DNA of 64,000 bases from Bacteroidia bacterium (lineage in GTDB: Bacteria; Bacteroidota; Bacteroidia; J057). The notes under the pieces are model-generated. The model did no database searches, was not told the DNA's origin, and was given only the letters and a program-made list of their open reading frames with translations. The stretch lies in assembly GCA_030430575.1 (NCBI GenBank), contig JAUIKF010000007.1:1-64000 (forward strand), in the 5' to 3' direction. This document shows, piece by piece, positions 13,588 through 41,102 of the stretch (its first letter is position 1; each line of letters opens with the position of its first letter). A program made the position numbers and the translations under genes.

Positions 13588-15669
13588 CTAGGCTTCCCTC
13601 ACCACCCGAAATCCCACAAAATTGCTTTGGTGGTGAGCATCAATTTCAAGATTGAAACTTGCATGTAGAAAATACCGACTGGTCATCCAACTGCCGCCTT
13701 TGGCGACAAATTTTTGGGACTGATCTGAGTACCCTGAATCCTGGCACCACTCAAAGACATTTCCTGTCATGTCATACAGGCCCAAGACATTGGGCTGTAG
13801 CGTTCCTACTGGTTGTGGACGTGCAGATAAGCCCGAGGCTTGTTTCAAAAGCTGCTCATAAAGCTTTTTATTCATTGCGTAGTCCATATGTATAGGCTTT
13901 TGATCAGCCACAGCCATAAATGGGAGATTAATAATTGAATTCCTTCCCTGTTGAAGTTCCCTATAGCCTTTCGTTGCAGCATCTTTTACCCTAGCCATGG
14001 CCCGCCAATCATGATGAAGGTCGACGTCTGTATCTGCCTTGAAGGTGTCCGTAATGTATTCCACAATTAGGTATGTTCCAAGCAGTTCCTGCATGGATTG
14101 ATGTGAAAGCTCTGCTTCCAGGTGAAGCGGCCTACTATCCTCACTTACTGCGAGGTATGGCAAATTGACAATGTGGGTATTGGATTGCCCTAAGGCGATC
14201 AAGGCCTTCTGGATGGCTGCATCCAACCGGATCAAGGCCAGGTCGTCACTGAACAGATCTACGTCATGTTTTAGGTTAAAAGACAGGCCCAGCCAATTGA
14301 GCAATTTGACATGGATAGACCTTGCCGCTGTATTTTCCTCAAACCAGGCTACCTTTTCAGGATGATCACTTCCCGCATATGGAGTCGTTTGTAATGCCTG
14401 GGCACCTCTTGACGCATATTCCCATTCAAATTTGGTTGGAAGTCGATACCGATTTCCAGTTTGAGCAGAAAGCCATTCGCAATAGGCAACGGCATCATGT
14501 GCACTGACAAAATGAGCGGGAAACCTGTTCTCTTTTTGTTTCATCAGATTTCGCCTATCATTAAGTATCCATTTCTGGCCAGAAAAAATGAATTTGTGGA
14601 GCAAAGGATTCTTAGATTTATATCGACTTTTTTGCAGAAAATCGATGTATTCTTTGCCTGTGACAGGGAATTTGCCTAGGTGAAAATCTTTAATCTTAAT
14701 AGGCGAAGCATTGTTTTTTTCCTTCCAATCGATGATACGATTCGATTGGCGTTCTCCCTGCTCTGGATAAAAAGTGCCATACGGAATCTTGATCATATCA
14801 GGAAAAAAATCGGATTGATCAGACGGTTGAGAAGCTAAAGGAGAAGTTCGAGAAGCAGAAGAACGGTTTTCTGTGGGGAAAGGATCTTGTGTGGCAGTAG
14901 GGGAAAGCGGATTTTTTAAGTAAAAAACAAACTCCCCATTTTGATCGCCAACGCCATGCATATAGCCGCCATAAGGCGTCTGGGAAGTATTGCGGATCGT
15001 CGCTTGCTTGACGTGCTGTACCAATTCAGAGACAGCCAATTTGGGATGTTGATTGGCGGCTAAAAAATGCAAGATAGCAGCAGCAAAAGGGCTGTTTTTG
15101 CCCGCCCTTCCATCTGCTACCAACTCATTCCTGCCTGAAGTCAGGAGCCACCTGGAGGGAAGGCCTTCCACTCTGGAGGCGTAATCAGGGGAAGCCTGAC
15201 GTGCCATACTCCCTGAAAAACACGCATCTACGATGAGCAAGGTATGAAGACTCCCAATGTCCTCGATATAGTCCTTGATAGTAGAATTGAAAATATACCC
15301 TGCCTTTTGCCCCAACTTCGCGTCGCTTGGTAGCCAATACCCTCGCTTGCGGTTGTCAAGCGTTCCGTGGCCTGCATAATAAATGATGACGCTGTCATCT
15401 TGGGTTACTATTGTAGTCAGGTGGTCTAATGCATCAATGATGCGATGCTTCGTCGCATCCTGGTTGAGCAAAAGTGTCTGCTGATCAGGATGAAAGGAAT
15501 ATTGCTCAATGAGCAGTTGGCTTACACTTTCCACGTCTTTGACGGCATTCGCCAAATTGTCGATTTGGCTATCCTGGTAGGCATCGATGCCAATAAATAA
15601 CAAATACTTTTTGCCACGATATTGGGGCGATTGATTGGGCTTTTGCCATGTTAGTCCACGTTTGGCCAT
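13588..15669 (-). CDS. Caspase-like (peptidase C14) fused to formylglycine-generating-enzyme-like domain
   Basis: The 693-residue protein has an N-terminal caspase/metacaspase fold ('KYLLFIGIDAYQ'; catalytic His101 in YYAGHG and Cys150 in DACFSG). A Ser/Pro-rich linker (~255-290) leads to an FGE/SUMF1-type domain ('MIKIPYGTF', 'FPVTGKEYIDFL', 'RLPTKFEWEYASRG', 'GLYDMTGNVFEWCQD', 'KGGSW', 'NFVGFRVV'). Between residues ~455 and 617 that domain carries a ~163-residue insert holding two half-repeats ('IVNLPYLAVSED..PLHL' and 'IINLPFMAVADQKPIHM'). The frame opens at 15777, but those extra 36 residues overlap a terminator hairpin, so Met at 15669 is used. There is no signal peptide. Caspase-FGE fusions occur in bacterial conflict and cell-death systems; the exact role here is inferred. 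Confidence 0.8.
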   Translation of the reverse strand: MAKRGLTWQKPNQSPQYRGKKYLLFIGIDAYQDSQIDNLANAVKDVESVSQLLIEQYSFHPDQQTLLLNQDATKHRIIDALDHLTTIVTQDDSVIIYYAGHGTLDNRKRGYWLPSDAKLGQKAGYIFNSTIKDYIEDIGSLHTLLIVDACFSGSMARQASPDYASRVEGLPSRWLLTSGRNELVADGRAGKNSPFAAAILHFLAANQHPKLAVSELVQHVKQATIRNTSQTPYGGYMHGVGDQNGEFVFYLKNPLSPTATQDPFPTENRSSASRTSPLASQPSDQSDFFPDMIKIPYGTFYPEQGERQSNRIIDWKEKNNASPIKIKDFHLGKFPVTGKEYIDFLQKSRYKSKNPLLHKFIFSGQKWILNDRRNLMKQKENRFPAHFVSAHDAVAYCEWLSAQTGNRYRLPTKFEWEYASRGAQALQTTPYAGSDHPEKVAWFEENTAARSIHVKLLNWLGLSFNLKHDVDLFSDDLALIRLDAAIQKALIALGQSNTHIVNLPYLAVSEDSRPLHLEAELSHQSMQELLGTYLIVEYITDTFKADTDVDLHHDWRAMARVKDAATKGYRELQQGRNSIINLPFMAVADQKPIHMDYAMNKKLYEQLLKQASGLSARPQPVGTLQPNVLGLYDMTGNVFEWCQDSGYSDQSQKFVAKGGSWMTSRYFLHASFNLEIDAHHQSNFVGFRVVREA

Positions 15670-15734
15670 CTGGAGTCGAAATAAAAGGCGGTTATCAGGT
15701 GATGGATCAAATTGCAAGTTTTTGTTTGATTCAC

Positions 15735-15766
15735 AAAAAAAGCCACCCAGTTTAAAGGCGGCTTTT
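15735..15766 (-). terminator. Rho-independent terminator between the EAD-like gene and the caspase gene
   Basis: The stem AAAAGCCACC / GGCGGCTTTT (one mismatch) has a 9-nt loop and is followed on the minus strand by a run of seven T. It would end the transcript of 15971-16747, so the caspase gene probably has its own promoter close to 15669-15734. Confidence 0.65.
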
Positions 15767-15794
15767 ATGATTATCAATCAATTAAAAAGAAAGT

Positions 15795-28992: not shown

Positions 28993-31440
28993 ATGAAAAA
29001 TATCCACTCCACGCTCCCGCTAATCAGTATTGTTTTCTTCCTTCTATCGGCGATGCCTTCTTTTGCTCAAAATGCACGGACCTATAATGAGATCGGCAAC
29101 AAAGTACTAAGTGAAGGAGATTATGAAAAAGCCATAGAGTATTACAATAAAGCTATTCGCCTCAATCCTTATAATGGAATTTATTATCTCAACCGAGGCA
29201 ATGCCTTTTTCAATAATGGTGATTATCAGCGTGCCAATAGTGATTATTCAAAAGCGATTCGCTATTACCGCAATGACCCACAGACGGTCGCTCGTTTGTA
29301 TTATCAGCGAGGCTTGTGTAGCTATATCCTAAATGACTATTACAGTGCGGTCCATGATTTCACGAGCGCCATTGCCATGCGCCCTAATGACCCTGACCCT
29401 TATTATTTCCGGGGAAAAATCCAGAAAATGGTGTTCAGCCGTCATATGCAAGCGCGGAAAGATTTTGAAAAAGTGGTACGTGTAGGGAATAAGTATTCGA
29501 TTTCTTCAGCCTTTGCATACTTTTTCCTTGGTGATGAGGAGGAGGCCAAAGATATATTAAAGCGCTTATTAAGCGAATCCCAAAATGATAGAGAAGAGTA
29601 TGCCAATGTATGCTATAATGTAGGCGGGTTCTATGGACTGCTGGGCCAGGAAGACCGTGCGGTGTATTATTTAGAGTATGCATTAAAAAATGGCTTTAAT
29701 GAGTTTGAATGGCTGAAACGCGACATCAATTTTGATAAAATTCGCTATACGCATGCATTCAAAACGTTGGTGAAAAACATGGGCTCTTATCATGCAGACC
29801 CTGTTATTACCCATACCCCGAATCAACAGAATAATTCCAATAACGCTCAATCGCCTTCTGCGCCCGCTTATTTGACGCTCACCAAACTTGAGTTTGCGGA
29901 TACTGATGGTAACAATAGTATAGATGCAGGTGAGACGACTTATATCAGCTTTACTTTAGTAAATAATGGCCGTGGCGCAGCTACCGAAATGGAACTGGTG
30001 ACTGAGGAAGTGGCTGGGATGACAGGGCTTGGATATACCCAACGTCAGACGCTGGGAACCTTAAACGCAGGTGAACAGCGTGATTTCAAGATTCAAGTAA
30101 ATGGTGGCCAGGACATAAAATCGGGTAAAGCAGAATTTAAAATCATGGTGCGTGAGCGCTATGGATTTGATAGCCAGCCAGTTCGAATAAGCATCCCCAC
30201 CCGTGAGTATATGCCCCCCAAAGTAGAGATTGTCGATCATCACTTTACAACTGAAGTAGGCGGAAAGATGCGCTTGGGGATTCCTATCAATCTGAAGATT
30301 GCGGTTCAGAACTTGGGCCAAGGGGAAGCTGAAGGAGTAGTGCTATCGATGAAATTACCAGAGAATGTGTTTTCAGCAGGAGAAAGTCGATTTGTGATAG
30401 GCAATCTCAAACCAGGGGAAAGTGAAGTCATAGATTTCGAATTCTTTACCAATAGAAGATATGATGAAGCAAGTGTATCCATATATGGTGAACTCAAAGA
30501 TGGACGTAGCAGTTTTGTTGCCAGTCAGGTGATGACTGTAGGGATCAATCAGGAATTGGAAGTGGACTCTCGTGTGATCGTCAAAGCTGGGGGACAAGAT
30601 CCGGTGGTAGATATTAACCAAATCCGTCTCCGTTCTGATGTTGATTCAAATTTGCCTCGCTCCTCTATGAATAATCCTGACGCCGTAGCTGTCATCATCG
30701 GGAACCGAGATTACCTAAATCCAGATGTGCCAGCAGTGGACTTTGCTTTGCATGACGCTAAAAGTATGAAGCGCTACCTGATTGAAGTATTTGGCTACGA
30801 TGAAAACAATATCATCATGTTAAATAACGCAACCCAGGCCGACTTTAACGGAACTTTTGGTACCAAAGAAAGCCATAAAGCACGACTCTATAACCTGGTG
30901 AAAGCAGGCAAGTCGGATGTGTTTGTCTATTACAGTGGCCATGGCGCGCCTGATTTGGAAAAAAATGAAGGGTACTTTGTGCCTGTGGACTGTGACCCTT
31001 CTCTCGTGAAATTTAATGGATACTCGATTAAGACTTTCTACGAAAATCTCTCCAAGATCTCTTACAATACCTTGACCGTTGTTATCGACGCATGTTTCAG
31101 TGGATCATCTGATAAAGGAACCCTGATGCCTGCGACTTCTTTGGCACGGATCAAGTCTGAAACAGGTGTGCTCAATGATCCCAATGCAGTTGTCTTTACT
31201 TCTGCTTCTGGCGACCAGGTCTCCAGTTGGTATCCTGAGCAGTATCACTCGCTTTTTACCTATTACTTCCTAAAAGGAATTCAAGAATCTGCCAATAATG
31301 ACCGCAACTATACTTTGACCCTGGGCGAACTTCGGGCCTATATCGCAGAAGAGGTGCCTTATATGGCACGTCGTTTAAAAAATCGCATTCAGACGCCTGA
31401 AGTTTATGGAAAGGATCAAACCGTTCTTATCAAATACTAA
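28993..31440 (+). CDS. Exported TPR - Ig-like - caspase (peptidase C14) protein
   Basis: The 815-residue protein has a signal peptide (cleavage after SFAQ, residue 26). TPR repeats span ~30-250 ('EGDYEKAIEYYNKAIRLNP', 'NGDYQRANSDYSKAI', 'LNDYYSAVHDFTSAIAMRPND'), followed by two CARDB/Ig-like beta domains (~292-402 and ~408-517). The C-terminal caspase domain spans ~565-815, with catalytic His650 in 'YYSGHG' and Cys701 in 'VIDACFSG'. The ATG at 28993 begins the signal peptide. A caspase on the exported side of the inner membrane is unusual, since most bacterial caspases are cytoplasmic. It is the first gene of a same-strand set with LPP20-like, DUF4384-like and transglutaminase-like genes. Confidence 0.88.
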   Translation: MKNIHSTLPLISIVFFLLSAMPSFAQNARTYNEIGNKVLSEGDYEKAIEYYNKAIRLNPYNGIYYLNRGNAFFNNGDYQRANSDYSKAIRYYRNDPQTVARLYYQRGLCSYILNDYYSAVHDFTSAIAMRPNDPDPYYFRGKIQKMVFSRHMQARKDFEKVVRVGNKYSISSAFAYFFLGDEEEAKDILKRLLSESQNDREEYANVCYNVGGFYGLLGQEDRAVYYLEYALKNGFNEFEWLKRDINFDKIRYTHAFKTLVKNMGSYHADPVITHTPNQQNNSNNAQSPSAPAYLTLTKLEFADTDGNNSIDAGETTYISFTLVNNGRGAATEMELVTEEVAGMTGLGYTQRQTLGTLNAGEQRDFKIQVNGGQDIKSGKAEFKIMVRERYGFDSQPVRISIPTREYMPPKVEIVDHHFTTEVGGKMRLGIPINLKIAVQNLGQGEAEGVVLSMKLPENVFSAGESRFVIGNLKPGESEVIDFEFFTNRRYDEASVSIYGELKDGRSSFVASQVMTVGINQELEVDSRVIVKAGGQDPVVDINQIRLRSDVDSNLPRSSMNNPDAVAVIIGNRDYLNPDVPAVDFALHDAKSMKRYLIEVFGYDENNIIMLNNATQADFNGTFGTKESHKARLYNLVKAGKSDVFVYYSGHGAPDLEKNEGYFVPVDCDPSLVKFNGYSIKTFYENLSKISYNTLTVVIDACFSGSSDKGTLMPATSLARIKSETGVLNDPNAVVFTSASGDQVSSWYPEQYHSLFTYYFLKGIQESANNDRNYTLTLGELRAYIAEEVPYMARRLKNRIQTPEVYGKDQTVLIKY

Positions 31441-31471
31441 AATTATTGAACAAAAATTAAATCTGATAATC

Positions 31472-32203
31472 ATGAAACTCAACAACCTAATTACCATCGC
31501 CTTTTCGCTATTCTTAATCGTAGCCATTAGTACGCCTATTCAAGCTCAGATGAGTCCTAAGGAAAAACGTCAATTAGAGCGTGAAGCTGACTACAATAAG
31601 GATGTAGCGAAATCGCAAACCAAAGCCGCCAAAAAACTGCTCAAGAAGAAAGCAGACAAGAATGCACGCAAAGAAGCCAAGAAGCTCCGTAAACAAGACT
31701 ATGTTGTTTTCCCAGGTAGTGTGCCTATGGCAAAGCAGTTGGAAAGCTGCTGGATGAAGCAGTTGGAGCAGGATGACCGTGGGGCGCAGAAGTACATCTT
31801 CTCAGACGGAAATGGCGTAGCCAATACCCAAACAGCTGCTGAAATGCAGGCTATGGAAGCGGCTAAACTCCAGCTTGCAGGCCAAATCTCTAACGAGATC
31901 AACCAAATTGTAGAAAGCAAAATTGCCAATGAGCAAATTAGCCGTGAGGAAGCTCAGTCCCTGACCAAGTTTGTCGCCGGTGGCAAAAACTATATCATCC
32001 AAAGCCTTTCTTATGTACGCCCTGCATTCAAAGTAATGCGCGAAGTAGGTAGAAGCAATGTAGAAGTGACTTTGAAACTGTTTTACAGTGTAGAAGAAGC
32101 AATGGAAGCTACAAAGAAAGCATTAGAAGCGAAAGCCCGTGCAGATCTGGAAGGTGAAGCAGACGAATTGATCGACCAGATCGACAAGTTGTTCAAGAAA
32201 TAA
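31472..32203 (+). CDS. Exported LPP20-like protein
   Basis: The 243-residue protein has a signal peptide (cleavage after IQAQ), then a very Lys-rich coiled-coil segment (~28-75). The C-terminal part resembles LPP20-family domains ('AMEAAKLQLAGQISNEINQIVESK', 'VMREVGRSNVEVTLKLFYSVEEAM'), ending in another charged helix. It starts 31 bp after the caspase stop codon, so it is very probably co-transcribed. It may be a periplasmic structural or scaffold partner; no enzyme motif is seen. The start at 31472 begins the signal peptide; an earlier start would add 22 implausible residues. Confidence 0.65.
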   Translation: MKLNNLITIAFSLFLIVAISTPIQAQMSPKEKRQLEREADYNKDVAKSQTKAAKKLLKKKADKNARKEAKKLRKQDYVVFPGSVPMAKQLESCWMKQLEQDDRGAQKYIFSDGNGVANTQTAAEMQAMEAAKLQLAGQISNEINQIVESKIANEQISREEAQSLTKFVAGGKNYIIQSLSYVRPAFKVMREVGRSNVEVTLKLFYSVEEAMEATKKALEAKARADLEGEADELIDQIDKLFKK

Positions 32204-32252
32204 TTTTTTGCAGGCAAAAAATTAGTGAAAATAACCTATTGAGGATGGCCTA

Positions 32253-32355
32253 AACAGCTAAGCTGTCATGTTGAGTGAAGGAAAACATCCTACATTACTA
32301 AAAATTAGATAATAGTAAGATCTTTCACTTCGTTCAAAATGACAGCCAAGCTGTT
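32253..32355. repeat. Inverted repeat, AGCTGTCATTTTGAACGAAGTGAAA family, inside the caspase gene set
   Basis: The arms 32253-32300 and 32313-32355 pair through AACAGCT-AGCTGTCAT and the TTACTA ends. The right arm, read on the minus strand, is nearly identical (about 38 of 40 by eye) to 39236-39275 on the plus strand. It separates the LPP20-like and DUF4384-like genes. The stretch 32385-32425 adds TTGAACC words. Confidence 0.75.
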
Positions 32356-32440
32356 AGGTATTGGAAAACCACTTGGCCGGCAAAATACAGTTGAACCCCT
32401 TGAACCACATTGAACCTTGAACTTAACCCCTGTCTTAGCC

Positions 32441-33334
32441 ATGAAACAAATCTTACTTATCACCTTGCTTATTAGCAGCCTTGTGGCTTTTGGGCAAAAA
32501 CAAAAGAAATCCACTGGCGAATACCAACTCAACCTCTCAAAGAGTGAATTTAGCCCTAGTGAGGCATGTGACTATTGTAAAGAAATGGCGCGTATTCAAG
32601 CCATTGAAAAGATTTTTGGAACAGTAGTCGTTCAGGGAAATACGACATATATCCGAAATACCCAAACTGGGGAGAAAGTTGAAACCAAGCAGGTTTTTAA
32701 CATGATGGCGGAGACCTATGTGAATGGGGATTGGATCAAGACAATCAAGGAAGATTGTAGCAATTTTGTTGAAAACGACGAATTCTGGATTCGATGTAAA
32801 GTCAAAGGCGTCGTGCAAGAATGGACACGTCCTCAACTTGACTTGAAAGTGGCTCCTCTCGACTGTGAGGATAAGAAATGTGAGAGTACAGCGTTTAAGG
32901 ATGGCGAATCTTTTTATCTCTATCTCAAAAGCCCTGTTGCCGGATACGTGTCAGTATATTTGGCAGATGAACATGTCGCTCAACGCGTTTTCCCCTACAG
33001 AAATATGCCCGAAGAGCAGGTCAATGGGGTAAAAGTAAAAGCAGATCGGGAGTACATCTTATTTTCTAGGATTATGGATGTGCTAGACCTCCGAAGCTAT
33101 GTCGACGAGTATGAGCTCTATGCCGAAAGTGAACAAGACCACAACCGCATTTATGTGATCTACAGCGAAAAGCCTTTGGTGAAGCCGGCGCTGTACGAGG
33201 CATCTTCTGCATCTGATTCTCAGATGCCTATGCAATTATCCGCTGAAGATTTTCAGCGTTGGCTCGCCCAAAATCGCCAGTACGACAATGGGGTACAGGT
33301 GGAGCGAGTAGATATCACAATTTCAAAGGACTAA
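32441..33334 (+). CDS. Exported DUF4384-like protein
   Basis: The 297-residue protein has a signal peptide (cleavage after AFGQ). An N-terminal region of the type seen in LPP20/FlgT-like proteins ('EMARIQAIEKIFGTVV', 'EFWIRCKVKG') is followed by a DUF4384-like domain ('FKDGESFYLYLKSPVAGYVSVYLADEHVAQRVFPY'). DUF4384 domains often occur with caspases and kinases as ligand- or partner-binding modules (established knowledge). The start at 32441 opens the signal peptide. Only 12 bp separate it from the transglutaminase-like gene, so the two are one transcript. Confidence 0.68.
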   Translation: MKQILLITLLISSLVAFGQKQKKSTGEYQLNLSKSEFSPSEACDYCKEMARIQAIEKIFGTVVVQGNTTYIRNTQTGEKVETKQVFNMMAETYVNGDWIKTIKEDCSNFVENDEFWIRCKVKGVVQEWTRPQLDLKVAPLDCEDKKCESTAFKDGESFYLYLKSPVAGYVSVYLADEHVAQRVFPYRNMPEEQVNGVKVKADREYILFSRIMDVLDLRSYVDEYELYAESEQDHNRIYVIYSEKPLVKPALYEASSASDSQMPMQLSAEDFQRWLAQNRQYDNGVQVERVDITISKD

Positions 33335-33346
33335 CCTACATCTAGC

Positions 33347-34861
33347 ATGAAAAAGCATATCATTATTTTTTCGGCCCTATTAATGGTCGTCTCGCTATCC
33401 CCTGCCCAAACTTGGCAAGAAAAGCTAGAGATGATGGAAAAGCGGGTCAAGAATAAACTTGACGAGCAAAGACTACGCGTAGAGCGTCAATACGCGGAGC
33501 AAATGCGTCGCGTATGGATGGAGGCAAGCTTGCTGGAGGGAATGGCCCCACCACCAGAGCCAAAGCCTGTCGATCCGAGCTTTTTTGATCCTGCCAAAGG
33601 AATGCCTGCTCAGGCTGAAATCATTTTGGCGCCTGTGCCAGATGAAAAACCACTCCCACCAAGGGAGGAGGAGCCAGTAGAAGTGGCCCCTGATCCTGCC
33701 CCTAGAGCCAAGGCTCCCAATTTGCGGCCAGCCTCTAGTGACATGGCTGATGGGATCGCTCGCCTGGATAAAAAACTCTCTGCCAACTTCTTTGGCAGGG
33801 ACCTCATTTTGCGCTATGATTCTCGTGCGCTATTTGAACCCATGGACTATGTCAATGAAAATCATATTGCAGACCTTTGGCTGAAAATGGATCAGTCAAG
33901 CCATGAGATGCTTCTCTATCAGTTGCAGCGCTACGCTGAGCATATGCAACTCAATGATTGGGGGTATTGCCAATTGGTCAATAGGGCTGCGAAGCATATT
34001 TACCCACATAGCAAAAACTCGCGCGTGATCTTCAACTGGTTCCATTTATCAAAATCAGGCTATATCGCTACAGTAGCTTATAGCCGTGATCGACTGTATC
34101 TCATGATGCCGTCTGAGCATGTGCTTTATGGAAAAACCTACCTCAAAGGAGAAAATGGATTAAAATATTATGTCTTCGACTTGGACGGGACCGACCCCGA
34201 TTTGGCTAGGGTTCGTGTGTATGATAATAAATACCCCGAAGCATCCCGTAAACTCGATTTCGCGATCAGCAGAGCACCTGCTTTAGCAGAGCGGATAGAA
34301 ACCAGAAACCTCAAGTTTTCATACAAAGGGAATGACTATTCCTTCCCTGTGAAGATTAACAAGTATTTGATGGGATTTTATTCTTCCTATCCGTTTATGG
34401 ATTTAAATGTTTATATGGGTGCACCGCTTTCTCAAGCTGCAAGGAATTCTCTGATTCCATCACTTCGTGCAGCGACGAAAAATATGTCTGAACAAGAAGC
34501 TGCCAATTTCCTGTTGCGCTTTGTACAAACTGCCTTTGAATACAAAACAGATAGAGAACAGTTTGGAAAGGAAAGGTACCTTTTTGCTGAAGAAACCCTT
34601 TTCTATCGATACAGTGATTGTGAGGATCGCTCTGTTCTATTTGCCTACCTCGTACGTGAAGTAATAGGCTTAGAAGCGATTGGCTTAGTGTTCCCCGGTC
34701 ATGCAGCTACGGCTGTGAGTTTTGGGGAGGATGTCAAAGGAGATCATATCCGCTACCGAGGAAAAAAATACATCATTTGTGACCCTACCTATATCAATGC
34801 AGAACTAGGGATGGTCCTTCCTGCCTATAAAAACAAGGAAGCTAAAGTGGTGCGTTTTTAG
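33347..34861 (+). CDS. Exported transglutaminase-like cysteine protein
   Basis: The 504-residue protein has a signal peptide (cleavage near SPAQ). A coiled-coil and Pro/Glu-rich region spans ~20-130 and a long uncharacterised middle follows. The C-terminal transglutaminase-like core has Cys425 in 'YSDCEDRSVLFAYLV', His452 in 'FPGHAATAV' and Asp479 in 'YIICDPTYINA', the full Cys-His-Asp triad. Such cores act as peptidases, amidases or cross-linkers. It is the last gene before the strong terminator at 34890-34930. Confidence 0.78.
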   Translation: MKKHIIIFSALLMVVSLSPAQTWQEKLEMMEKRVKNKLDEQRLRVERQYAEQMRRVWMEASLLEGMAPPPEPKPVDPSFFDPAKGMPAQAEIILAPVPDEKPLPPREEEPVEVAPDPAPRAKAPNLRPASSDMADGIARLDKKLSANFFGRDLILRYDSRALFEPMDYVNENHIADLWLKMDQSSHEMLLYQLQRYAEHMQLNDWGYCQLVNRAAKHIYPHSKNSRVIFNWFHLSKSGYIATVAYSRDRLYLMMPSEHVLYGKTYLKGENGLKYYVFDLDGTDPDLARVRVYDNKYPEASRKLDFAISRAPALAERIETRNLKFSYKGNDYSFPVKINKYLMGFYSSYPFMDLNVYMGAPLSQAARNSLIPSLRAATKNMSEQEAANFLLRFVQTAFEYKTDREQFGKERYLFAEETLFYRYSDCEDRSVLFAYLVREVIGLEAIGLVFPGHAATAVSFGEDVKGDHIRYRGKKYIICDPTYINAELGMVLPAYKNKEAKVVRF

Positions 34862-34889
34862 CGGAAGAATCCACCTAATTCTCGCACAT

Positions 34890-34930
34890 AAAAATTGCGT
34901 GTACCTGATTTTCAGGTACACGCAATTTTT
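34890..34930 (+). terminator. Rho-independent terminator of the caspase/transglutaminase gene set
   Basis: A perfect 19-bp stem (34890-34908 with 34912-34930) has a 3-nt loop and a T-run at its 3' end, 28 bp past the last stop codon. It is symmetric enough to work on both strands. Confidence 0.88.
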
Positions 34931-35004
34931 ATTTCGGCACATTCCTTGTCATATATTCCTTGTTCCAATGTACGGCGTGAATTTCAATTCTTATAAAAAA
35001 GAAA

Positions 35005-39138: not shown

Positions 39139-39396
39139 GTTCTGGGTTTTATGTTCTAGGTTTTAAGTCGTTCTCTCACCTAAAACCTAGATGTACTGAA
39201 ATATTAACTTGGGGCAAAATATTATCAGGCCTTAGACAGCTTAGCTGTCATTTTGAACGAAGTGAAAAATCTTACAACTCCCTCATAATCAAATAGTAAG
39301 ATCCTTCGTAGGGCTCAGGATGCCAAGTGAATTGTCAGCTAATTAAATTGCCCCCAAGTTAGGTTAGTTGTACACCTAGAACGTAGAACCTAGAAC
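39139..39396. repeat. Nested (three-level) inverted repeat
   Basis: Outer level: TTCTAGG/CCTAGAA words at 39139-39167 and 39372-39396 (with CTAGGTTTTA also pairing to 39181-39190). Middle level: 39206-39217 (AACTTGGGGCAA) pairs with 39348-39360, allowing one bulged base. Inner level: 39234-39275 pairs partly with 39296-39345, including a CTTAC/GTAAG core. The inner level belongs to the family at 32253-32355. The gene-free stretch 39125-39643 holds this element and, beyond 39400, nothing I recognise. Confidence 0.7.
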
Positions 39397-39803: not shown

Positions 39804-41102
39804 ATGAAAAAAAGCCTGTTTTTGATTGGGGCTCTGCTATTTCTTGCCAGTTGTGGCTTAGGGGGTGGTGGTACCGTATTGGACGGATTTGTGAATAATT
39901 ATTGGCAAATGCGGCAGGGCAATGAGGTGCTTGAAGGACTGAATGCTTCTATTAGACAAGGCCTTGATAAGCGCCTCAACAATGCCTCTGAAGCTGATTC
40001 TGATTCAGCCGCCCAAATTCGGCTTCGTGAATTGTTTGATGCGAGAGAATTCATAGAAGATGTGCTAAACTACACCACTAATAAACTAGAAAAGCTGGCA
40101 GGATTGGATATTCCTGGTCATTCCATTCGGGAGAAAGATGCTTCTTCAGCTGTCGCATCCTTTTGGAAAAATGATGAATTGGATGCCCTCAGGGCTGCTT
40201 TTTTGCTCTATGAAAAAGACCTCGCCGAAATCGCAGCGGCAATGGAGGTAGAGCCGCTGGAAGTCATGTGGAAAAGAGAAGAGTTCTGGGATTATTTAGC
40301 ACAAGAAGGCCCAATTGTGAGTCACCTATGCCAAATGGAGGGCCTGAAATCAGCATTAATCAACGCTGAAAATTATTATTTAATGAAACTCCAGGAACAG
40401 CAAGAGCTTCCAGCAGCTATTTGGCTTTCCCCCTTGCAGCGCCTGTATCACTATGGGATGGAAATCACTTCTAAGAATTCTTTGGTAATGTATAGGGATT
40501 GTGGAAATGACGTCGAGATCAACGTTCCTGCATGGGAAGAGAATTATTCCCCGATAGTGGAAGTAGATAAAAATAGCTCAGTGCGGCAAGGGAAGGCCAA
40601 TCCGCGGAGTTTTCTGGTAGTTCCGAAGGGAAAGAAATGTGAAATAACTGTGAATGCCCAGGTAGGGAAGGAGTTGATGAAAATAGGGCAGGCCAAATAT
40701 AGAGTGGTTTCGCCTCCTAAACCCAAAATAGAGATGCTGGTCAACGGGAAGGTCTACAATGGAAGTTCTCCAATTCCTAAAACCAGCCGCCTCCTTGTCC
40801 GAATTGTCCCTGATCCAGAGTTCCGTCAGTTTATGCCTAATGACGCTCGCTATGGGATTACAAAAATTTCGGTTTTAGGTCAATTGTCTTTAGGGCCTCC
40901 CAAAAATGTAGGGCTGATCGAAGGAGGCAGAGCAGAGAAAGGCATCAAGGTAAGTATGCCTAGCCCAGTAAGGAAAGCCAGACCAGGAACTAAGGTCTAT
41001 GTACGTCTGGAAGAAATTTATCGGGTCAATTATCGGTCAAAAAAAATCCCAGAGACCCGGTTTTCTGAAATAGAGCGAACGCTTGGCTTGGTAACACGAT
41101 AA
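39804..41102 (+). CDS. GldM-like lipoprotein
   Basis: The 432-residue protein has lipobox 'LFLASC' (Cys17), a helical N-terminal half, and a C-terminal beta region. That region's pattern ('NSLVMYRDCGNDVEINVPAW', 'RSFLVVPKGKKCEITVNAQVGKELMKIGQAKYRVVSPPKPKIEML') follows the periplasmic domains of GldM/PorM, the shaft of the T9SS/gliding motor. True GldM has an N-terminal transmembrane helix and ~520 residues and sits in gldKLMN. This copy is lipidated, shorter and outside that context, so it is a paralogue of unknown role. The similarity is read by eye. Confidence 0.55.
   Translation: MKKSLFLIGALLFLASCGLGGGGTVLDGFVNNYWQMRQGNEVLEGLNASIRQGLDKRLNNASEADSDSAAQIRLRELFDAREFIEDVLNYTTNKLEKLAGLDIPGHSIREKDASSAVASFWKNDELDALRAAFLLYEKDLAEIAAAMEVEPLEVMWKREEFWDYLAQEGPIVSHLCQMEGLKSALINAENYYLMKLQEQQELPAAIWLSPLQRLYHYGMEITSKNSLVMYRDCGNDVEINVPAWEENYSPIVEVDKNSSVRQGKANPRSFLVVPKGKKCEITVNAQVGKELMKIGQAKYRVVSPPKPKIEMLVNGKVYNGSSPIPKTSRLLVRIVPDPEFRQFMPNDARYGITKISVLGQLSLGPPKNVGLIEGGRAEKGIKVSMPSPVRKARPGTKVYVRLEEIYRVNYRSKKIPETRFSEIERTLGLVTR

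Follow-up and report, generated by a model that had tools for sequence, protein, structure and literature searches.

The stretch analysed here (the window) comprises 64,000 nucleotides, positions 1 to 64,000 of the forward strand of contig JAUIKF010000007.1 of a Bacteroidia bacterium (GTDB lineage Bacteria; Bacteroidota; Bacteroidia; J057; GenBank assembly GCA_030430575.1). At positions 28993-34861 it carries a caspase gene set of four consecutive plus-strand genes with intergenic gaps of 31, 237 and 12 bp, and the open reading frame (ORF) coordinates agree in this with an earlier reading made from the letters alone (the sequence-only reading). The proteins, named P1 to P4 in gene order, are a caspase, an LPP20-like protein, a weakly DUF4384-like protein and a protein with the transglutaminase/LapG fold:

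28993-31440, plus strand: P1, predicted exported TPR / CARDB-like / caspase (C14) protein, 815 amino acids (ORF, Pfam, signal-peptide heuristic)
31472-32203, plus strand: P2, predicted exported LPP20-like protein, 243 amino acids (fold and profile comparison)
32441-33334, plus strand: P3, predicted exported protein, 297 amino acids, C-terminal part weakly DUF4384-like (sub-threshold Pfam match)
33347-34861, plus strand: P4, predicted exported transglutaminase/LapG-fold cysteine enzyme, 504 amino acids (weak Pfam match, structure model, fold comparison)
34888-34932, plus strand: hairpin with a 21-bp stem and a 3-nt loop, predicted intrinsic terminator ending the set (folding)

A mechanical ORF list gives earlier starts for gene 1 (28750, TTG), gene 2 (31406) and gene 3 (32417, TTG); the starts adopted, here as in the sequence-only reading, are those that yield signal peptides. 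P1 to P4 all pass a simple, permissive signal-peptide heuristic, as do 52 of 53 P2, 35 of 38 P3, 16 of 16 P4 and 33 of 37 caspase proteins across the linked loci. The sorting domain of Type IX secretion, Por_Secre_tail, had no Pfam match in P2, P3 or P4 (E 0.1) or in P1 (E 0.001). The strong terminator claimed for the end of the set is borne out by folding (-31.7 kcal/mol, z -10.6, none of 200 shuffles equally stable); a simple terminator scanner did not list this hairpin. A Bacteroidota-type promoter pattern had no match in the region of the set and was not commoner in the window than in shuffled sequence.

The set was followed through 22 genomes of the window's order, 13 of them in the window's family (G and L numbers are our labels for genomes and loci). 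P4 was found in 12 genomes, P3 in 11 and P2 in 11 (each at E 1e-5), and residues 301-815 of P1 in 13 (E 1e-10), a count in which other caspases are included. P2 and P3 occur in the same 11 genomes, in 12 copies each, and adjoin in all 12; a caspase adjoins 11 of these copies, the exception being G017, which has P2-P3 on one contig and the caspase on another. The order caspase-P2-P3-P4 is present in eight of the 13 family genomes, from seven genera (G000, G013, G005, G006, G010, G011, G015 and G016), and was seen only inside this family. Contig ends truncate the caspase gene of G010 and G011 and the P4 gene of G015 and G006, and in the gene maps P2 of G005 and G016 was hidden by overlapping antisense ORFs, the order there being taken from match coordinates. 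The flanking genes are the same ordinary ones in G000 and G013. Other combinations also occur: a second set caspase-P2-P3 without P4 in G011 (G011:C83, L083), an additional pair of P4 and caspase, lacking P2 and P3, in G006 (G006:C455, L030), P2-P3-caspase in G018 and G019, which belong to a different family, and P4 without P2 and P3 in G012 and G021; G008 and G009 have a weak P4 match only.

When named genomes were searched with the P2 alignment, 51 loci were obtained, in which the other families were sought by profile (E 1e-4). P3 lies near P2 at 38 of these, a caspase at 37 and P4 at 19; all three are present at 12, at least one at 48 and none at three. The caspase is still counted at 33 loci and P4 at 17 when E < 1e-20 is asked for. 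Since many of the contigs are short, these counts are lower bounds; at the 23 loci with at least 5 kb on both sides the numbers are 19 for P3, 20 for the caspase and nine for P4. At least seven of the 51 loci overlap the order sample (L089-L094, from six of the seven genomes that share the exact order with the window's own, and L112, from G018), so that the two surveys are not independent. The arrangements (E < 1e-10) include P2-P3-caspase (10 loci), P2-P3 alone (eight), caspase-P2-P3-P4 (six), P2-P3-caspase-P4 (four) and P2-P4 with two opposite-strand caspases (three), and others besides. The names attached to the loci (Bacteroidia, Bacteroidales, Dysgonamonadaceae, Muribaculaceae, Flavobacteriia and Chlorobiota) indicate that the families are not confined to close relatives; the alphaproteobacterial names (Thalassobius, Thalassovita; metagenome-assembled) on the P2-P3 loci L105 and L109 are taken for binning errors. 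Co-occurrence beyond very close relatives was the test that the sequence-only reading had set for itself, and it came through it. Its claim that all four families belong together holds in part: P2, P3 and the caspase recur, but P4 is not constant. The comparison shows P2, P3 and the caspase together in distant lineages, as the core of the system, with P4 as an optional partner.

P4 is also met on its own terms. Its alignment matches 120 of 395 genomes sampled from the phylum, many of them only in the beta-propeller tail of long P4 proteins, and at least 48 of the 395 have the P4 core (50 rows, the own genome included, by a hand count among the matches listed); the scan scored only two candidates in each genome, and certain core rows are limited to the catalytic part. 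From the 49 other core rows 35 loci in 33 genomes were picked by score and spread, leaving out 14. A caspase is near P4 at one of these 35 loci (L173, where P2 is found too), P2-profile matches at five and P3 at none; Pfam LPP20 proteins are among the neighbours at L158, L163 and L166. At L166 the P4 relative stands beside two LPP20 proteins and one LpoB protein (E 2e-32), without a caspase, and L164, L165 and L170, which have P2-profile matches near P4, look like it. Three 317-residue ORFs lie in tandem beside P4 at L162:10887-14268 (minus strand), their first 45 residues near-identical and flagellin-like by eye.

In P1 the following parts can be distinguished:

28993-29067, plus strand: signal peptide, ending ...PSFA|Q (by eye and heuristic)
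29074-29775, plus strand: TPR region, residues 28-261 (TPR_1 E 1e-19; TPR_END_plus E 8e-17)
29923-30546, plus strand: CARDB/DUF11-like beta-sandwich region (sub-threshold in the window protein)
30685-31410, plus strand: caspase domain, residues 565-806 (Pfam; comparison with solved structures)
30754-30756, plus strand: Asp588, presumed first acidic S1-pocket residue (invariant in 38 of 38)
30940-30942, plus strand: catalytic His650 (residue check)
31087-31089, plus strand: Asp699, presumed second acidic S1-pocket residue (invariant in 38 of 38)
31093-31095, plus strand: catalytic Cys701 (residue check)

P1 qualifies as a C14 orthocaspase: Peptidase_C14 matches at E 1e-16 with 61.7 bits, above the curated Pfam cut-off of 21.4, and His650, Cys701, Asp588 and Asp699 are all in place. 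The TPR match also exceeds its curated cut-off and the CARDB match falls below it. Among 38 linked caspases the extra domains at E 0.001 were CARDB in 19 and WD40 in 10; on this evidence the region N-terminal to the caspase domain is exchangeable (TPR, CARDB, WD40). Both catalytic patterns are kept in 34 of 37 strong caspase ORFs and one or both are missing in L132_1, L132_6 and L123_3. The solved structures nearest to the caspase profile are MALT1 and metacaspases (17 sequences, E 2e-6 to 0.009). Asp588 and Asp699 align with Asp residues of MALT1 and metacaspase-9, in columns that we take to be those of the S1 pocket, and are invariant in all 38 linked caspases. The invariance and alignment of both residues predict that the caspase would cleave after Arg or Lys, as MALT1 and the metacaspases do. 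According to the available part of the source, the characterised C14 members other than caspases cut after Arg or Lys owing to an acidic pocket (PMC5756287).

Further caspase-like genes were noticed. The window has a second one at 13591-15777 (minus strand), a 729-residue ORF with a TTG start and no signal peptide by the heuristic, with C14 (E 5e-16), FGE-sulfatase (E 5e-43) and HSP70-type (E 1e-14) domains. At L132:11558-17631 a SIR2-like gene and a 552-residue ORF without clear family are followed by two caspase-like ORFs, of which one is without either catalytic pattern and the other without the His pattern. A second, divergent caspase-like ORF adjoins P2 in L100, L117 and L123, with cut ORFs in L111 and L114; it lies before P2 in L117 and after it elsewhere, and the L123 copy lacks the Cys pattern. 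Two more ORF clusters stand beside linked caspases, in eight and six loci (L123:6998-8059, L124:12511-13317 and relatives). The one member scanned of the first cluster matches FGE-sulfatase (E 2e-52), that of the second is weakly DUF5683-like, and the N-termini of the members of both look alike by eye.

P2 is, by detectable homology and modelled fold, a relative of LPP20, although the Pfam model does not match it. The P2 profile matches a protein of G369 (E 5.7e-8) that is itself a Pfam LPP20 protein (E 7e-12), and hhalign aligned P2 with an LPP20 protein over 120 columns (E 2.4e-5, probability 75%). In the structure model (predicted local distance difference test score 91) the fold of residues 70-243 resembles Tip-alpha, Lpp20 and HP1454 (Z 6.2-7.6; 5ok8 Z 7.4), with 9-15% identity among the matches listed; the best Foldseek match had E 0.016. 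LPP20 was not among the 14 Pfam families matched by 10 P2 members (E 0.1), nor did the window protein match it, so that the LPP20 label of the sequence-only reading stands on fold and profile. By eye the window protein has no lipobox cysteine and has a long N-terminal helix.

For P3 no reliable family can be named beyond a weak similarity to DUF4384. The domain matches at E 0.02 with 15.4 bits against a Pfam cut-off of 27, so that the DUF4384 name given earlier survives as a sub-threshold label only; in the P3 family matches at E up to 0.1 were obtained for six of 12 members (best 0.0015). A comparison of P3 with a protein that has an above-cut-off DUF4384 gave a match limited to the signal peptide. 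Homology between P2 and the N-terminus of P3 is not claimed, the hhalign match (E 1.5e-4) covering only the signal peptide and the residues just after it. A sequence comparison of P2 and P3 with solved structures gave nothing credible.

P4 has its catalytic residues at the following positions:

34619-34621, plus strand: catalytic Cys425 (conservation, residue check)
34700-34702, plus strand: catalytic His452 (conservation, residue check)
34781-34783, plus strand: catalytic Asp479 (conservation, residue check)

The intact residues reported earlier for P1 and P4 were all recovered. Among 15 P4 proteins Cys425 and His452 are invariant and Asp479 is at least 90% conserved, one protein being cut before it. 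Transglut_core matches P4 at E 0.0016 with 19.1 bits, below the Pfam cut-off of 23. In 10 P4 members (E up to 0.1) it was found in four, with DUF553 and P35 in one, all weakly, and the BTLCP-type (LapG) model was not among these three families. Residues 315-504 match the transglutaminase core fold and carry its Cys-His-Asp triad. The catalytic domain gave Z 10.7 with chain E (presumably LapG) in the entry of a LapD-ortholog complex, and Z 9.4-9.6 with three LapG entries (the LapG rows covering 130-133 residues at a root-mean-square deviation of 3.1-3.3). TglA followed with Z 9.2, the putative Bacteroidota proteases 3isr and 3kd4 with Z 8.5 and 8.3, and human transglutaminases with Z 8.0-8.6; no Foldseek match had an E below 0.001. 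With LapG nearest, proteolysis is at least as likely an activity as cross-linking. The sequence-only reading had left P4 as proteolytic or cross-linking, and the nearest folds now favour the protease by a small margin. In the model an N-terminal helix and the folded body are joined by a Pro-rich stretch of low confidence (roughly residues 59-125), and in long P4 proteins of other lineages the C-terminal part matches the CylK propeller (E 6e-29). The model hinted at two similar halves; a tandem pseudo-transglutaminase was rejected, hhalign of the halves giving a probability below 1%.

Two features of the window stand apart from these proteins. The gap between P2 and P3 holds a dispersed genomic repeat:

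32253-32355, no strand: imperfect palindrome with two 41-nt arms, 78% complementary

It recurs in the own genome with 12 matches at nine places, the query included, one other copy lying at 39228-39307. A predicted lipoprotein with the third and fourth domains of GldM (E 2e-8 and 1e-5) is encoded at 39804-41102 (plus strand); no gliding operon was recognised by eye around it.

The recurrence of these families in distant Bacteroidota points to a real protein-processing system of the cell envelope. We propose that the set is a chromosomal exported protease module, and give this reading as a whole an even chance. P2 and P3 would together make up an assembly bound to the envelope, with the caspase docked on it through its exchangeable region (in this set TPR and CARDB-like, in others WD40 or CARDB). 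Once signalled by the assembly, the caspase would cleave targets in the periplasm or outer membrane after an Arg or Lys residue, and P4 would be a second cysteine peptidase (or a cross-linker) on the same assembly, not necessarily a substrate of the caspase. The periplasmic location, the docking, the cleavage of envelope targets and the role of P4 as a second enzyme are thus all steps that we infer. A further elaboration, in which sensor regions read the state of the LPP20-type assembly and release limited proteolysis with a LapG-like executioner, as a two-protease cascade of periplasmic caspase signalling, seems to us unlikely.

Several observations weigh against the proposed module. The docking step is drawn from domain types only, and the P2 fold scores (Z < 8) are weak taken alone. 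Structural matches of P4 within 1 Z count as tied, which leaves both a protease and a cross-linker. The sequence-only reading had given all four proteins signal peptides, and they do pass the heuristic, but 147 of the 286 other ORFs at these loci pass it as well. The P2 loci without any partner are L110, with full flanks, and L120 and L135, on short contigs. In the phylum sample, a first search of 296 genomes found P2 in the own genome only, and with a broader profile P2 was found in three of 395 (one being the plain LPP20 lipoprotein of G369) and P3 in one, in scans that scored only five or seven candidates per genome and may have missed some carriers; this rarity suggests that the system is dispensable for most of the Bacteroidota sampled. 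Finally, the four families diverge in step from locus to locus (pairwise distances, r 0.76-0.88, with 0 of 500 permutations for each pair), which speaks for the module, but genes that descend together on one chromosome would show the same.

That the four genes lie side by side with no functional link is nevertheless hardly credible. Their order and strand differ between lineages, yet at least one partner accompanies P2 at 48 of 51 loci, where some 0.02 caspases per 20-kb locus would be expected by chance (seven places in the 8.16 Mb of the own genome). The partner counts, the distance correlation and the varied orders led us to reject a chance neighbourhood, and the adjacency of the same families in varying orders argues for coupling rather than inertia. 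The sequence-only reading had gone further and proposed a cascade in which a periplasmic caspase cleaves and activates P4, which then cross-links envelope proteins while P2 and P3 bind. Both enzymes do have intact catalytic residues, all four genes are adjacent in the same order in eight of 13 family genomes, the four families meet at 12 of 51 P2 loci, G006 has its P4-caspase pair without P2 and P3, and the Pro-rich stretch of P4 would be a plausible place for an activating cut. We nonetheless consider this cascade improbable: P4 was not found at 32 of 51 P2 loci (several on short contigs), no caspase is near P4 at 34 of 35 loci elsewhere, no conserved Arg or Lys was seen by eye in the disordered linker (alignment and model), and the catalytic domain has a protease as its closest structural match.

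A role in envelope housekeeping, with LPP20/LpoB-type proteins serving the upkeep of peptidoglycan or outer membrane and the caspase acting as a quality-control or processing peptidase without any trigger, is possible but doubtful. It would account for the P4 relatives outside the class that stand beside LPP20-type proteins without a caspase (Pfam-confirmed at L158 and L166), for the P2-profile matches at L164, L165 and L170 and for the ordinary flanking genes shared by G000 and G013; the patchy distribution is atypical of such a function, however, and lineages differ in the interaction region that the caspase carries. These same two properties would suit a cell-death or anti-phage system, in which the exchangeable domains would register damage or attack, with the caspase and P4 killing the cell from the periplasm, and a SIR2-like gene is also present at one locus, L132. 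Such a system we regard as very unlikely. PADLOC gave no listed anti-phage system with all its genes: P1 had only a weak match, to the generic caspase model (E 3.9e-6), and P2, P3 and P4 had no match at E 0.001; no gene of a mobile element could be made out by eye in the ORFs at window positions 24-40 kb, and exported defence proteases are, to our knowledge, unusual. The proposed module of a P2/P3 assembly with a docked caspase is the reading that we retain.

Each component of this module has known counterparts. P2 shares the fold of its residues 70-243 with Lpp20, Tip-alpha and HP1454 of H. pylori, and has a profile link to Pfam LPP20, but differs from that group in the missing lipobox cysteine and the long N-terminal helix. 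LapG of the LapD/LapG adhesin system, a periplasmic cysteine protease of transglutaminase fold as far as it is described in the available texts, is the closest solved fold to the catalytic domain of P4, which differs from it in its 504 residues, with a large N-terminal part and a linker, and in its weak Pfam matches. P1 shares the caspase domain with the MALT1 paracaspase and the metacaspases of plants and trypanosomes (at most about 30 bits), and both acidic S1 positions with MALT1 and metacaspase-9; unlike P1, these cytoplasmic eukaryotic enzymes carry other accessory domains. With the orthocaspases (C14), as the available parts of the papers present them, P1 shares the His-Cys dyad and the acidic specificity pocket (PMC3501461, PMC6426788, PMC5756287, PMC7475262), but it adds a predicted signal peptide and two or three separate, predicted exported partners. 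In the same sources, WD40, TPR and FGE-sulfatase are common extra domains of caspase homologues, some of which have an N-terminal helix that is possibly a signal peptide, and 237 of 508 homologues with operon data lie in predicted operons (PMC3501461); DUF4384 is fused to some orthocaspases (PMC6426788, PMC7475262). Orthocaspase gene clusters are thus already known. Among the papers turned up by literature searches, none was seen to describe a caspase-P2-P3-P4 set, and we infer that an exported set with these partners is a new variant, with a mechanism that would be as proposed above.

Little is known of what caspase homologues do in bacteria, and the set names candidate interaction partners for one group of them together with its likely compartment. 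If the proposed reading is true, limited proteolysis of the caspase type would also take place in the bacterial envelope, beside the systems of the LapG type.

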